From: Bacteroidota bacterium
GTDB taxonomy: Bacteria > Bacteroidota > Bacteroidia > Flavobacteriales > Flavobacteriaceae
Reading direction: 5' to 3'
DNA: 64,000 bases
Assembly: GCA_027621505.1 (NCBI GenBank)
Contig: JAQCBK010000002.1
Coordinates: 25,632-89,631 of the forward strand
Position numbers and translations under genes: made by a program. Under the pieces are notes generated by a model. The model did not search any database and was not told the origin of the DNA. It saw only the letters and a program-made list of their open reading frames with translations. The number at the start of each line of letters is the position of its first letter. Position 1 is the first letter of the stretch. Below are positions 23,966-28,289 of this stretch, piece after piece.

Positions 23966-24895
23966 TTACTCTGGATGGGGTAGGGCCACTTTTGTGGATT
24001 TTTTGGAAACCAAATAAACCCCCCACATGATCAGCAAACAAGCAAAAAACTTGACCCCGTCCAGCACATCATTTCCTGTATAGACTGCATATCCAATGGC
24101 AATCACGGGTTGTGCGTAGGCAAAGGCCCCTACTGTGGAAGCTTGTAAATTCCTCAGGGCATACAAGTTCAGCAAGTAAGTGGAAAAGGTCGTACCCAAA
24201 ACCACATAGGCAATCCGCCAAAACGCATCGAAGGGTAGGGTCGCCCAGGCGATCTCACTGAATTCCTCCAACGTGATCGGAAATGTGAGGACAAAACCTA
24301 TCAAAAACAACCACTTCATCAGCGTAACCGTTTGATATTTTTCCGACAAAGGCTTGATCACGATCATAAAAGCAGAAAAGAAAACAGAATTTACCATAAA
24401 CAAAATATTACCCACAAGAACATTGGGGGCATTAGCCGTATTTTCGATGCCATAGAGCACCAACATAATCGCACCAGCAAAACCTAAGGTAATCCCCAAA
24501 AACTTTCGTAAGCCGATTTTTTCTCTCAAAAACAAATAAGAAAGCAAAAGAATAAGGATGGGGTTGGTGGTAGCAAAAATTCCACTGTTGACTGGCGTGG
24601 AAAGTTCCAGTCCTTTAAAAAAAGTAAGCATGTTGATGCACATTCCCATCAAGGCAGCCAAAAACAATCTTAGGTAATCACCGCGATCGATTTTTTCTTG
24701 GGGGAGGAACAAACTGACCAGCCAAAAAAGCAGTGCCGCTCCAGCGGTGCGGATAAAAATAAAACCAAATGCCCCCACATAAACCGGCATCACCACCTTG
24801 GCTATGGTATGGTTGAGACCATAAATCATGGTGGCTCCAGTAGCCGCCAAAAGCGCCCAATTCCTAGTGTTCATCCAAGCATTTTTTGGCATCAT
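23966..24895 (-). CDS. EamA/DMT family transporter
   Basis: About 10 TM helices, two EamA-like halves (TTNPILILLLSYLFLREKIGLRKFLGITLGFAGAIML). Confidence 0.9.
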   Translation of the reverse strand: MMPKNAWMNTRNWALLAATGATMIYGLNHTIAKVVMPVYVGAFGFIFIRTAGAALLFWLVSLFLPQEKIDRGDYLRLFLAALMGMCINMLTFFKGLELSTPVNSGIFATTNPILILLLSYLFLREKIGLRKFLGITLGFAGAIMLVLYGIENTANAPNVLVGNILFMVNSVFFSAFMIVIKPLSEKYQTVTLMKWLFLIGFVLTFPITLEEFSEIAWATLPFDAFWRIAYVVLGTTFSTYLLNLYALRNLQASTVGAFAYAQPVIAIGYAVYTGNDVLDGVKFFACLLIMWGVYLVSKKSTKVALPHPE

Positions 24896-25220
24896 TCACT
24901 GTAGATTTGCTGTTGCCTACAAAGACTTGTGATTTGTAGAGCAAAACCGGACGTTTCAGAAAAGTATAGTGATCCAAAAGCAAGGCTTTAGCATCCTCTT
25001 CAGTCAATGCTTTGGGATCAATTCCCCTTGTTTTAAACAATTGAGCACGCTTGTTGATCAGGGACTCATAGCTACCAGTGGCCGTAAACAAAACCGACAA
25101 CTGTTCCTCTGTCAGCGGGTCTTTTTTGATATCGATCAAGGCCACCTCCTCCGAAAGGTCTAGGGTTTCCAAAATCCTTTTGCAGGTCGAACAACTGCTC
25201 AAATAAAGAAAAGCGTCCAT
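24864..25220 (-). CDS. Arsenate reductase / Spx-like thioredoxin-fold family protein
   Basis: MDAFLYLSSCSTCKRILETL (CxxC) and LLDHYTFLKRPVLLYKSQVFVGNSK. Confidence 0.82.
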   Translation of the reverse strand: MDAFLYLSSCSTCKRILETLDLSEEVALIDIKKDPLTEEQLSVLFTATGSYESLINKRAQLFKTRGIDPKALTEEDAKALLLDHYTFLKRPVLLYKSQVFVGNSKSTVNDAKKCLDEH

Positions 25221-25341
25221 AATCAACAATATCCAATGCAAAGAAATATCATTTATGTCGATAAATAAAGCCTTTTAATCTGGCATTTATACTAATTTTT
25301 TTTAATTACTTTTACGGTAGTTTAAAGCCCCAAATCTAACT

Positions 25342-25455
25342 ATGAGACTTCACCGTTTCAACACCTTGCTTTTTTATTTGCTTAATAGCCTTCTGTATAC
25401 ATCAGTTAAGCTACTCCCAGCCCTAGTTCAATATGTTTCACTTCCTAGTCAATGA
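25342..25455 (+). CDS. Small ORF (37 aa), hydrophobic; possible leader peptide
   Basis: ATG AGA CTT CAC...CAA TGA = MRLHRFNTLLFYLLNSLLYTSVKLLPALVQYVSLPSQ. Its TGA overlaps an ATG at 25452 of the next ORF. Not in the ORF track (short). Confidence 0.3.
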   Translation: MRLHRFNTLLFYLLNSLLYTSVKLLPALVQYVSLPSQ

Positions 25456-25475
25456 AGACAAACCTCCCCAAAGAA

Positions 25476-26216
25476 ATGAAAAAAATTTTGCCCCTGATTT
25501 TCTTTTTATTGACCATTTCGGTGGTTTCGGCCCAGGTCAAAATAGGAGATGCTCCTAAAAAAATAAATCCCAATGCTCTTTTGGAATTGGAAAGCCAAAA
25601 TAAGGGCATGTTGATCCCTCGCATGACCACCGCACAAAGGGATCGTGCTTTTACCCTAGACGTCCCCAACGGCTTGATGATTTTTAACACCGATGAAAAA
25701 GCAGTTCAAGTCTGGTTGTCTGATAGTGCCCAATGGCAAAGCCTGATTGTTCCTGAAGATAAACCCCAGCAAATCTCATTGGAAAACCACATACTGAGAC
25801 TATCCGATGGTGGTACTGTTGACCTCAGCCCCTACATTGACACTGATACGGATACCGACACCGATGACCAGCAAGTGCCTGGTATAGTAACTTCTTATGG
25901 AAGCACCTTAGCCGAACTAAAAGTAAACGTTCAGCAGGCCTATACGGATTATTATGATTTGGCGGTAGAATTAAAAGAAGATTATGCCACCAAATTAGAG
26001 GCAACTCCAAAATTTACATATCTATTGAATCTGAAAAATATTTTTGAGTTGCTGCCGGAAGTAAAAATTTCGAATATTGCCGAAAAAGCAAATATCAATC
26101 CCTCATTGTTGCGACAGTATAAAACTGGCAAAGCAGAGGCATCTGAGGAACAGGCCAAAAAGGTATTAAAGGCCATACACCAATTAGGCGAAGAACTTTT
26201 GTCTGTTTCTTTTTAA
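25476..26216 (+). CDS. Chimeric protein: secreted Bacteroidetes surface-type N-terminus fused to a HicB-antitoxin-like HTH C-terminus
   Basis: MKKILPLIFFLLTISVVSAQ signal peptide, DTDTDTDTDDQQ linker, then YLLNLKNIFELLPEVKISNIAEKANINPSLLRQYKTGKAEASEEQAKKVLKAIHQLGEELLSVSF, which resembles the C-terminal half of Bacteroidetes HicB-like DNA-binding antitoxins. Confidence 0.6.
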   Translation: MKKILPLIFFLLTISVVSAQVKIGDAPKKINPNALLELESQNKGMLIPRMTTAQRDRAFTLDVPNGLMIFNTDEKAVQVWLSDSAQWQSLIVPEDKPQQISLENHILRLSDGGTVDLSPYIDTDTDTDTDDQQVPGIVTSYGSTLAELKVNVQQAYTDYYDLAVELKEDYATKLEATPKFTYLLNLKNIFELLPEVKISNIAEKANINPSLLRQYKTGKAEASEEQAKKVLKAIHQLGEELLSVSF

Positions 26217-26258
26217 GTAGCACCCATTATTTAAAAACCACTGGCACCTGACCGCTGT

Positions 26259-26306
26259 CGTGCCTCTTGTTGGCGCAAGCACCTGTGCTTGTCTCCTAAC
26301 AGCACG
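26259..26306. repeat. Long imperfect palindrome (potential cruciform/RNA hairpin)
   Basis: CGTGC-ctct-TGTTGG-cg-CAAGCAC-ct-GTGCTTG-tct-CC(t)AACA-GCACG; arms pair over about 18 bp. Confidence 0.7.
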
Positions 26307-26364
26307 CCAGGGGTCTACCTTTCTCCAAAATCCCATACCTTTGCAGAAATTAAAATCGACTGCA

Positions 26365-27519
26365 ATGCCAAAACAATTGCGATTTAACAGTGCTACCATC
26401 CACGGAGGCCAGGAACCGGACAAGGCCTATGGTGCGGTAATGCCACCCATTTACCAAACCTCTACCTATGCCCAAACCACCCCTGGTGGGCATCAAGGCT
26501 ATGAGTACAGCCGAACGCACAACCCCACCCGTACGGCTTTGGAGCGCTCCATGGCCAGTATCGAAAATGCAAAATACGGCTTGGCCTTTGCCTCTGGTAT
26601 GGCCGCCATGGATGCCGTTCTTAAACTTTTTCAACCAGGAGATGAAATCATCTCCACCGATGACCTCTATGGCGGATCTTACCGATTGATGACCCAAATC
26701 TTTCAAAAATATGGATTAAAAATCCACTTTGTCAACATGGAAAAGGCCAGTACTGTGACCCAATTCCTCAACGACAAAACCCGTCTCATCTGGATCGAAA
26801 CCCCCACCAATCCCATGATGAAGGTGGTGGACATCCGTGCCGTTACGGCCTTGGTCAAAGACCATAAGGCTTTGGTGGCTGTGGACAATACTTTTGCCTC
26901 TCCCTACCTCCAACAGCCGCTTGAGTTGGGAGCAGACATCGTGCTCCACTCCGCAACCAAATACCTCGCTGGACACAGCGATACCGTTCTCGGACTCCTG
27001 GCGGTCAACGACGATGAACTCCAAGAACAACTTGCCTTTATCCAAAATTCCAGCGGTGCCGTCCCAGGACCCATGGACTGCTTCCTTACCCTCAGGGGCA
27101 TCAAAACCCTTCACCTGAGGATGCAAAGACATTGTGAAAATGGAGCTGCTGTGGCCATCTACCTCCAACAGCATCCCAAAATTGAAAAGGTTTATTGGCC
27201 TGGATTTGTAGATCATCCCAACCACGAAGTGGCCAAAATACAAATGAAGGCCTTTGGGGGCATGCTCTCCTTTGTCCCTCAGGGAGGCGCTTTGCAAAGA
27301 GCTATAAATATAGTTAATAACCTAAATATCTTCACCCTGGCAGAATCCCTCGGGGGCGTTGAAAGTTTGGCTGGCCATCCGGCTTCCATGACCCATGCCG
27401 CTATCCCCAAAGCAGTTCGCGAAAAAAATGGGGTAGTCGATGGATTGATCCGCCTCAGTGTGGGGATTGAAGACGTACAAGATCTGATCGAAGATTTGGA
27501 TCAGGCCATCGGTGTCTAA
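26365..27519 (+). CDS. Cystathionine gamma-synthase/lyase family PLP enzyme
   Basis: GYEYSRTHNPTRTALE, FASGMAAMDAVLKLF, VLHSATKYLAGHSDTVLG, ESLGGVESLAGHPASMTHA. ATG at 26365. Confidence 0.93.
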   Translation: MPKQLRFNSATIHGGQEPDKAYGAVMPPIYQTSTYAQTTPGGHQGYEYSRTHNPTRTALERSMASIENAKYGLAFASGMAAMDAVLKLFQPGDEIISTDDLYGGSYRLMTQIFQKYGLKIHFVNMEKASTVTQFLNDKTRLIWIETPTNPMMKVVDIRAVTALVKDHKALVAVDNTFASPYLQQPLELGADIVLHSATKYLAGHSDTVLGLLAVNDDELQEQLAFIQNSSGAVPGPMDCFLTLRGIKTLHLRMQRHCENGAAVAIYLQQHPKIEKVYWPGFVDHPNHEVAKIQMKAFGGMLSFVPQGGALQRAINIVNNLNIFTLAESLGGVESLAGHPASMTHAAIPKAVREKNGVVDGLIRLSVGIEDVQDLIEDLDQAIGV

Positions 27520-27530
27520 TTGTCCCGTCT

Positions 27531-28289
27531 ATGGAACTCCCTAAAAACAAAAAAATTTATTTTGCCTCCGACAACCACTTGGGTTTGCCCAATGCAGATG
27601 CGAGCCGGGAACGGGAAAAGCATTTTGTCTCCTGGCTGGAGAACGTACGAAAGGACGCTGCAGCGATTTACCTCTTGGGTGATCTTTTTGATTTTTGGTT
27701 TGAATACAAGACCGTGGTTCCAAAAGGCTTTGTAAGGGTACTGGGCAAATTGGCCGAGCTGTCCGATACCGGCATTCCCATCACTTTTTTTGTCGGCAAC
27801 CACGACCTATGGATGCGGGATTATTTCCAAAAAGAACTGGGGGTTACCGTCCACCACCACCCCATCACTTTGACCATCGGCACTGCCCGTTTTTTGATCG
27901 GACATGGCGATGGATTGGGCCCGGGGGACAAAGGCTACAAACGGATGAAAAAGTTGTTTACAAACCCCCTTTCAAAGTGGCTTTTTCGCTGGTTGCACCC
28001 CGATTGGGGCGTCCGATTGGGGCAATACCTTTCCCAAAAAAACAAACTGATTTCTGGGGAGGAAGACGTCCAATTTTTGGGGGAGGACAAAGAGTGGTTG
28101 GTAACCTATTCCAAAAGAAAACTCCAAAAAGAACATTTCGATTATTTTGTTTTTGGTCATCGCCACCTGCCCTTGGAAATCAAATTGACCGAAAAATCTA
28201 AGTACATCAATTTGGGGGATTGGATTACCCACAACACCTATGCCGAATTTGACGGTAAGCAATTGGTTCTAAAAACATGGAAAAAGTAG
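27531..28289 (+). CDS. lpxH: UDP-2,3-diacylglucosamine diphosphatase-like metallophosphoesterase
   Basis: IYFASDNHLG, YLLGDLFDFWFEYK, FFVGNHDLWM, FLIGHGDGLGPGD, FVFGHRHLP. Confidence 0.85.
   Translation: MELPKNKKIYFASDNHLGLPNADASREREKHFVSWLENVRKDAAAIYLLGDLFDFWFEYKTVVPKGFVRVLGKLAELSDTGIPITFFVGNHDLWMRDYFQKELGVTVHHHPITLTIGTARFLIGHGDGLGPGDKGYKRMKKLFTNPLSKWLFRWLHPDWGVRLGQYLSQKNKLISGEEDVQFLGEDKEWLVTYSKRKLQKEHFDYFVFGHRHLPLEIKLTEKSKYINLGDWITHNTYAEFDGKQLVLKTWKK

Follow-up and report, generated by a model that had tools for sequence, protein, structure and literature searches.

In the spacer between an arsC-like gene and a cystathionine gamma-synthase/gamma-lyase-like gene, this Flavobacteriaceae genome carries an open reading frame (ORF) that is, judged by homology, the N-terminus of a secreted surface protein followed, in the same frame, by the C-terminal part of a HicB antitoxin (Table 1; the window is the whole 64,000-nucleotide stretch of DNA analysed). 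An earlier note on the window had proposed such a chimera, and homologues have now been found for both of its parts. An in-frame ATG at 25452, upstream of the start listed, would extend the ORF by 8 residues. Pfam and NCBIfam searches with the whole chimera gave sub-threshold matches only, and AlphaFold, run on it without an alignment, returned a pLDDT of 43, too low to be of use.

Table 1. Features of the chimeric ORF and its surroundings, in window coordinates.
Feature	Position	Strand	Remarks
arsC-like gene (Spx/ArsC family by motif), 118 aa	24864-25220	-	Conserved left neighbour; orthologue in 21 of 22 genus genomes, adjoining downstream gene
Conserved left spacer edge, outside insert	25241-25283		77% identity to G016 spacer (L036), weak; same TGCAAAGAAATG motif in many genus spacers
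Insert, ~1.03 kb, approximate extent	25284-26318		Found only in this genome; flanking homology stops at both points
Chimeric ORF, 246 aa	25476-26216	+	Single open frame, no internal stops
Surface-protein head	25476-25871	+	Signal peptide and LLELES...GMLIPRMTTAQRD module, ending DTDTDTDDQ; 48% identity, residues 1-121, to 552-aa genus homologue
GAYACN micro-repeat (DTDTDTDD)	25839-25868	+	Surface side only; absent from HicB relatives
Truncated HicB antitoxin	25872-26216	+	β3, helix α1 (HicA-binding helix in solved HicABs), β4 and complete C-terminal helix-turn-helix (HTH), without β1-β2; aligned with 20 HicB relatives
Internal start GTG, only plausible one	25875-25877	+	At head of HicB part; no ATG in tail
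Hairpin, long, near-perfect, no T-run	26250-26316	+	Just 3' of chimeric ORF, right end of insert; fold z -3.6; single copy in genus; no terminator call
Cystathionine gamma-synthase/gamma-lyase-like gene	26365-27519	+	Conserved right neighbour; 73-90% identical orthologues in genus

Genomic setting of the insert

The assembly (1.85 Mb in 100 contigs, 86% complete) was compared with 21 further genomes from its genus. Counting this one, 21 of the 22 have the two flanking genes side by side, and the spacer between them measures 107-410 bp in most of the others; one genome has 767 bp of unresolved content there. Both spacer ends in the present genome still resemble those of its relatives. Three genus spacers (L043, 527-1399; L044, 526-1374; L049, 599-1447 reverse-complement) hold, on the opposite strand, a gene whose product is secreted, measures 282-290 aa and contains DISxWDTSxVxxM repeats; the spacer thus tolerates insertions. 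The hairpin at the insert's right edge was considered as a dispersed repeat, which its single copy in the genus rejects, and as an integron attC site, which was rejected by eye since the order of its arms is the wrong way round. The sole Rfam match, RAGATH-25, fell far below the cut-off, the hairpin itself having no match.

A surface-protein head without its body

The earlier note took residues 1 to ~130 for the start of a Bacteroidota secreted or surface protein, a reading that the genus homologues bear out: up to residue ~125, the head is 42-48% identical, over ~120-150 residues, to the N-termini of surface proteins whose full-length forms comprise 552, 555 and 688 aa (G004, G010 and G001). 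Beyond the shared N-terminus, these homologues have repeat regions, in which YadA-head or collagen-like matches occur, and then coiled C-termini. In the chimera, the conserved N-terminal module is present, the repeat region and C-terminal domain are absent, and HicB sequence stands in their place after residue ~131. The signal peptide, assigned by eye, is plausible; no Pfam or HicA match was found in the head. A similar DTDTDSQ motif occurs further along the 552-aa homologue, and the aspartate-threonine repeat of the chimera is therefore assigned to the surface side.

The full-length homologues lie between apbE and a methyltransferase gene that adjoins map, and in these relatives the surface gene and its neighbour are both complete, with a PorP/SprF-like gene between them. 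At the map/apbE locus of the genome studied here (G000, contig C78:10500-15772; L182, 2229-3789), all that is left of the surface gene is its C-terminal half. It runs, out of frame, into a neighbour that is itself truncated, having lost a C-terminal region which by its motif, ITPNGDGKND, is a T9SS-type sorting domain. A moved 5' piece would link this beheaded gene with the surface head of the chimera, if both halves came from one gene; upstream of the chimeric ORF, no PorP/SprF or other gene debris was found.

An incomplete HicB tail

The resemblance of the last ~110 residues to HTH-bearing HicB antitoxins, suggested in the earlier note, was likewise upheld. Homology spans the whole tail, which is 50-54% identical over ~110 residues (at best 54% over 111) to five Flavobacteriaceae HicB proteins of 134-138 aa, encoded at loci of Salegentibacter spp. 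(L069-L072) and of a Flavobacteriaceae metagenome-assembled genome (L068). Identity is 24-36% with the HicB proteins that Porphyromonas phages, unannotated gut phages and a Parabacteroides plasmid encode. Aligned with 20 relatives, the tail lacks the first ~25-27 residues of HicB and has everything from β3 to the natural C-terminus; it is thus an incomplete HicB. It had been proposed that the first β-strand was lacking, of which the truncation stands but the count does not: two strands, β1-β2, are gone. The C-terminal HTH domain, predicted to bind DNA, retains a fully conserved core (NPSLLRQY) and a helical fold. AlphaFold2, given the alignment of HicB relatives, modelled the tail with confidence (mean pLDDT 90.7), and the nearest PDB structures, at weak E-values of 0.08-0.1, are XRE-type HTH proteins, with E. 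coli HicB3 (6u0i) ranking second.

Third-position GC content (GC3) is 33% in the tail versus 46% in the window, which puts the tail among the lowest 3% of pieces of its size, while that of the head is typical for the window, which points to different origins of the two parts. Moreover, no HTH-type HicB was found in the other genomes of the genus, and the tail accordingly looks imported. Elsewhere, Salegentibacter tibetensis has a broken copy of the same type of HicB (L089, 2891-3171), its frame interrupted after 50 residues.

The join

Homology to HicB begins at the motif QVPG in protein (residue ~133, codon at 25872) and at 25878 in DNA, i.e., just 3' of the GAYACN repeat encoding DTDTD and not within it, where the fusion point had first been placed. 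The idea that this repeat served as a shared recombination site was also rejected, the HicB relatives having no such repeat at the corresponding place. At the join, those relatives read ACN-CAA-AAY versus GAC-CAG-CAA in the chimera; thus, at most a few bases are shared, and no long word is common to the surface and HicB sides. The frame runs intact through the join up to the natural HicB stop.

These features bear on whether the junction at ~25870 is an error of what is a metagenome-type assembly, one that brought together two genuine loci or a collapsed stretch, an explanation that we regard as unlikely. It would be in keeping with the fragmentation and incompleteness of the genome, with the repetitive nature of surface-protein modules, with the occurrence of the fusion in one genome only and with the beheaded surface gene at the C78 locus. 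However, the outer flanks of the insert are the conserved neighbours of the spacer, which makes a single mis-join of distant loci unlikely and would call for a collapse or at least two errors, and the two sides lack the long shared word noted above.

HicA and the possibility of a free tail

The five closest intact HicB relatives have HicA directly upstream, as do the annotated phage and plasmid records among the relatives of the tail; by HicA profile, the same holds in at least 81 of 110 loci, a minimum figure, since many of them are incomplete at their ends or lie on the other strand. At the chimera, the adjacent hicA toxin gene is absent, as the earlier note had stated: the profile found no match on either strand of 24801-27600, and a hidden HicA remnant near the chimera was rejected over the same interval. 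The sole HicA found in the genus belongs to an intact hicAB pair on contig C30 of this genome (L178, 1444-2045), the HicB of which has a C-terminus that is not of the HTH type. This pair was considered as the source of the tail and rejected, its HicB being of a different kind by sequence.

The internal GTG, the one plausible candidate for an internal start, sits exactly where HicB homology starts and could give a 113-aa cytoplasmic HTH protein, complete with the HicA-binding helix, that would serve as a regulator or a trans-acting antitoxin. We give this very little credence. The conserved HTH and α1, the confidently predicted fold and the HicA encoded elsewhere in the genome would suit such a protein, yet of the three strands with which the partial RNase H fold begins it would lack two, the HicA in question is paired with an adjacent HicB of a different type, and no promoter signal above chance was seen.

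Distribution of the fusion

A HicB joined to a surface head was found in this genome only, among 80 named HicB loci, 398 order-level genomes and 395 class-level genomes; a conserved fusion is thereby rejected. Across the named loci and the ~790 genomes, tail-type HicB is otherwise free-standing, broken or fragmentary, or fused to HicA. A tabulation of loci from match coordinates is unreliable for order-sample loci matched on the reverse strand; these are covered by open-frame lengths, which reach at most 188 aa, this genome excepted. Two HicB frames stood out by their length in the class sample and were rejected as surface-head fusions, both being HicA-HicB fusions: in these two genomes of one family (L184, 236-859; L185, 224-835), a HicA-like part, diverged, and HicB form a single chain of 203-207 aa.

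This distribution weighs on a further reading, namely that the chimera is a working secreted protein in which the HicB/HTH part provides a fold or an oligomerisation end. The intact frame and plausible signal peptide would fit, as would the dimerisation of HTH parts in HicB (PMC10865869). On the other hand, no second case exists in the samples surveyed, the C-terminal part that ends the full-length genus homologues is absent and codon composition differs between the halves. We therefore hold it to be highly improbable.

Discussion

We consider the chimera to be most likely a lineage-specific gene remnant, i.e., the scar of a recent illegitimate recombination, and probably non-functional. In the sequence of events that we envisage, a hicAB module of Salegentibacter type would have been imported, as composition and its absence from the genus suggest, and DNA carrying a surface-gene start, which does lie there today, together with a hicAB operon would have ended up in the spacer. 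Illegitimate end joining would then have deleted what followed the surface-gene start, the whole of hicA and ~25 codons at the 5' end of hicB, with the observed in-frame survival being a matter of chance. The product, if made, would be exported via its putative signal peptide, and an exported HTH could meet neither DNA nor HicA. Antitoxin function would thus have been lost, leaving the chimera decaying or neutral. With export, the missing β1-β2 and no toxin to neutralise, it most likely has no function as an antitoxin or regulator.

An intact frame and a conserved HTH core nevertheless exceed what would be left in an old pseudogene; the fusion is hence either recent or kept, and this counts against the interpretation as a scar. 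Retention could mean that the exported leader and truncated HicB serve a new extracellular or periplasmic role of the HicB part, with its HicA-binding helix and dimerising HTH, or that the internal GTG yields an orphan HTH regulator; we think it very doubtful that either is the case.

Set beside known systems, the chimera shares with the HTH-bearing HicB of hicAB modules its tail sequence, its HTH and its stop position, but differs in lacking β1-β2 and hicA and in bearing a secreted surface head. With the LLELES...RMT surface proteins of Bacteroidota it has in common the signal peptide and the first ~125 residues, whereas HicB replaces all that would follow DTDTDTDDQ. Class 11 fused HicA-HicB proteins, a recurrent type of fusion with HicA as partner, likewise place an HTH-bearing HicB inside a fusion protein (PMC10865869). 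The chimera, by contrast, has no N-terminal HicA domain; its HicB part is attached to an unrelated export module, in a fusion of which no other example was found.

As a probable scar, the chimera would add another case in which surface-gene modules and toxin-antitoxin debris are shuffled in Bacteroidota genomes. To annotate the ORF plainly as an HTH or antitoxin product that bears a signal peptide would mislead. Were the protein functional, it would represent the reuse of an antitoxin fold outside the cytoplasm.
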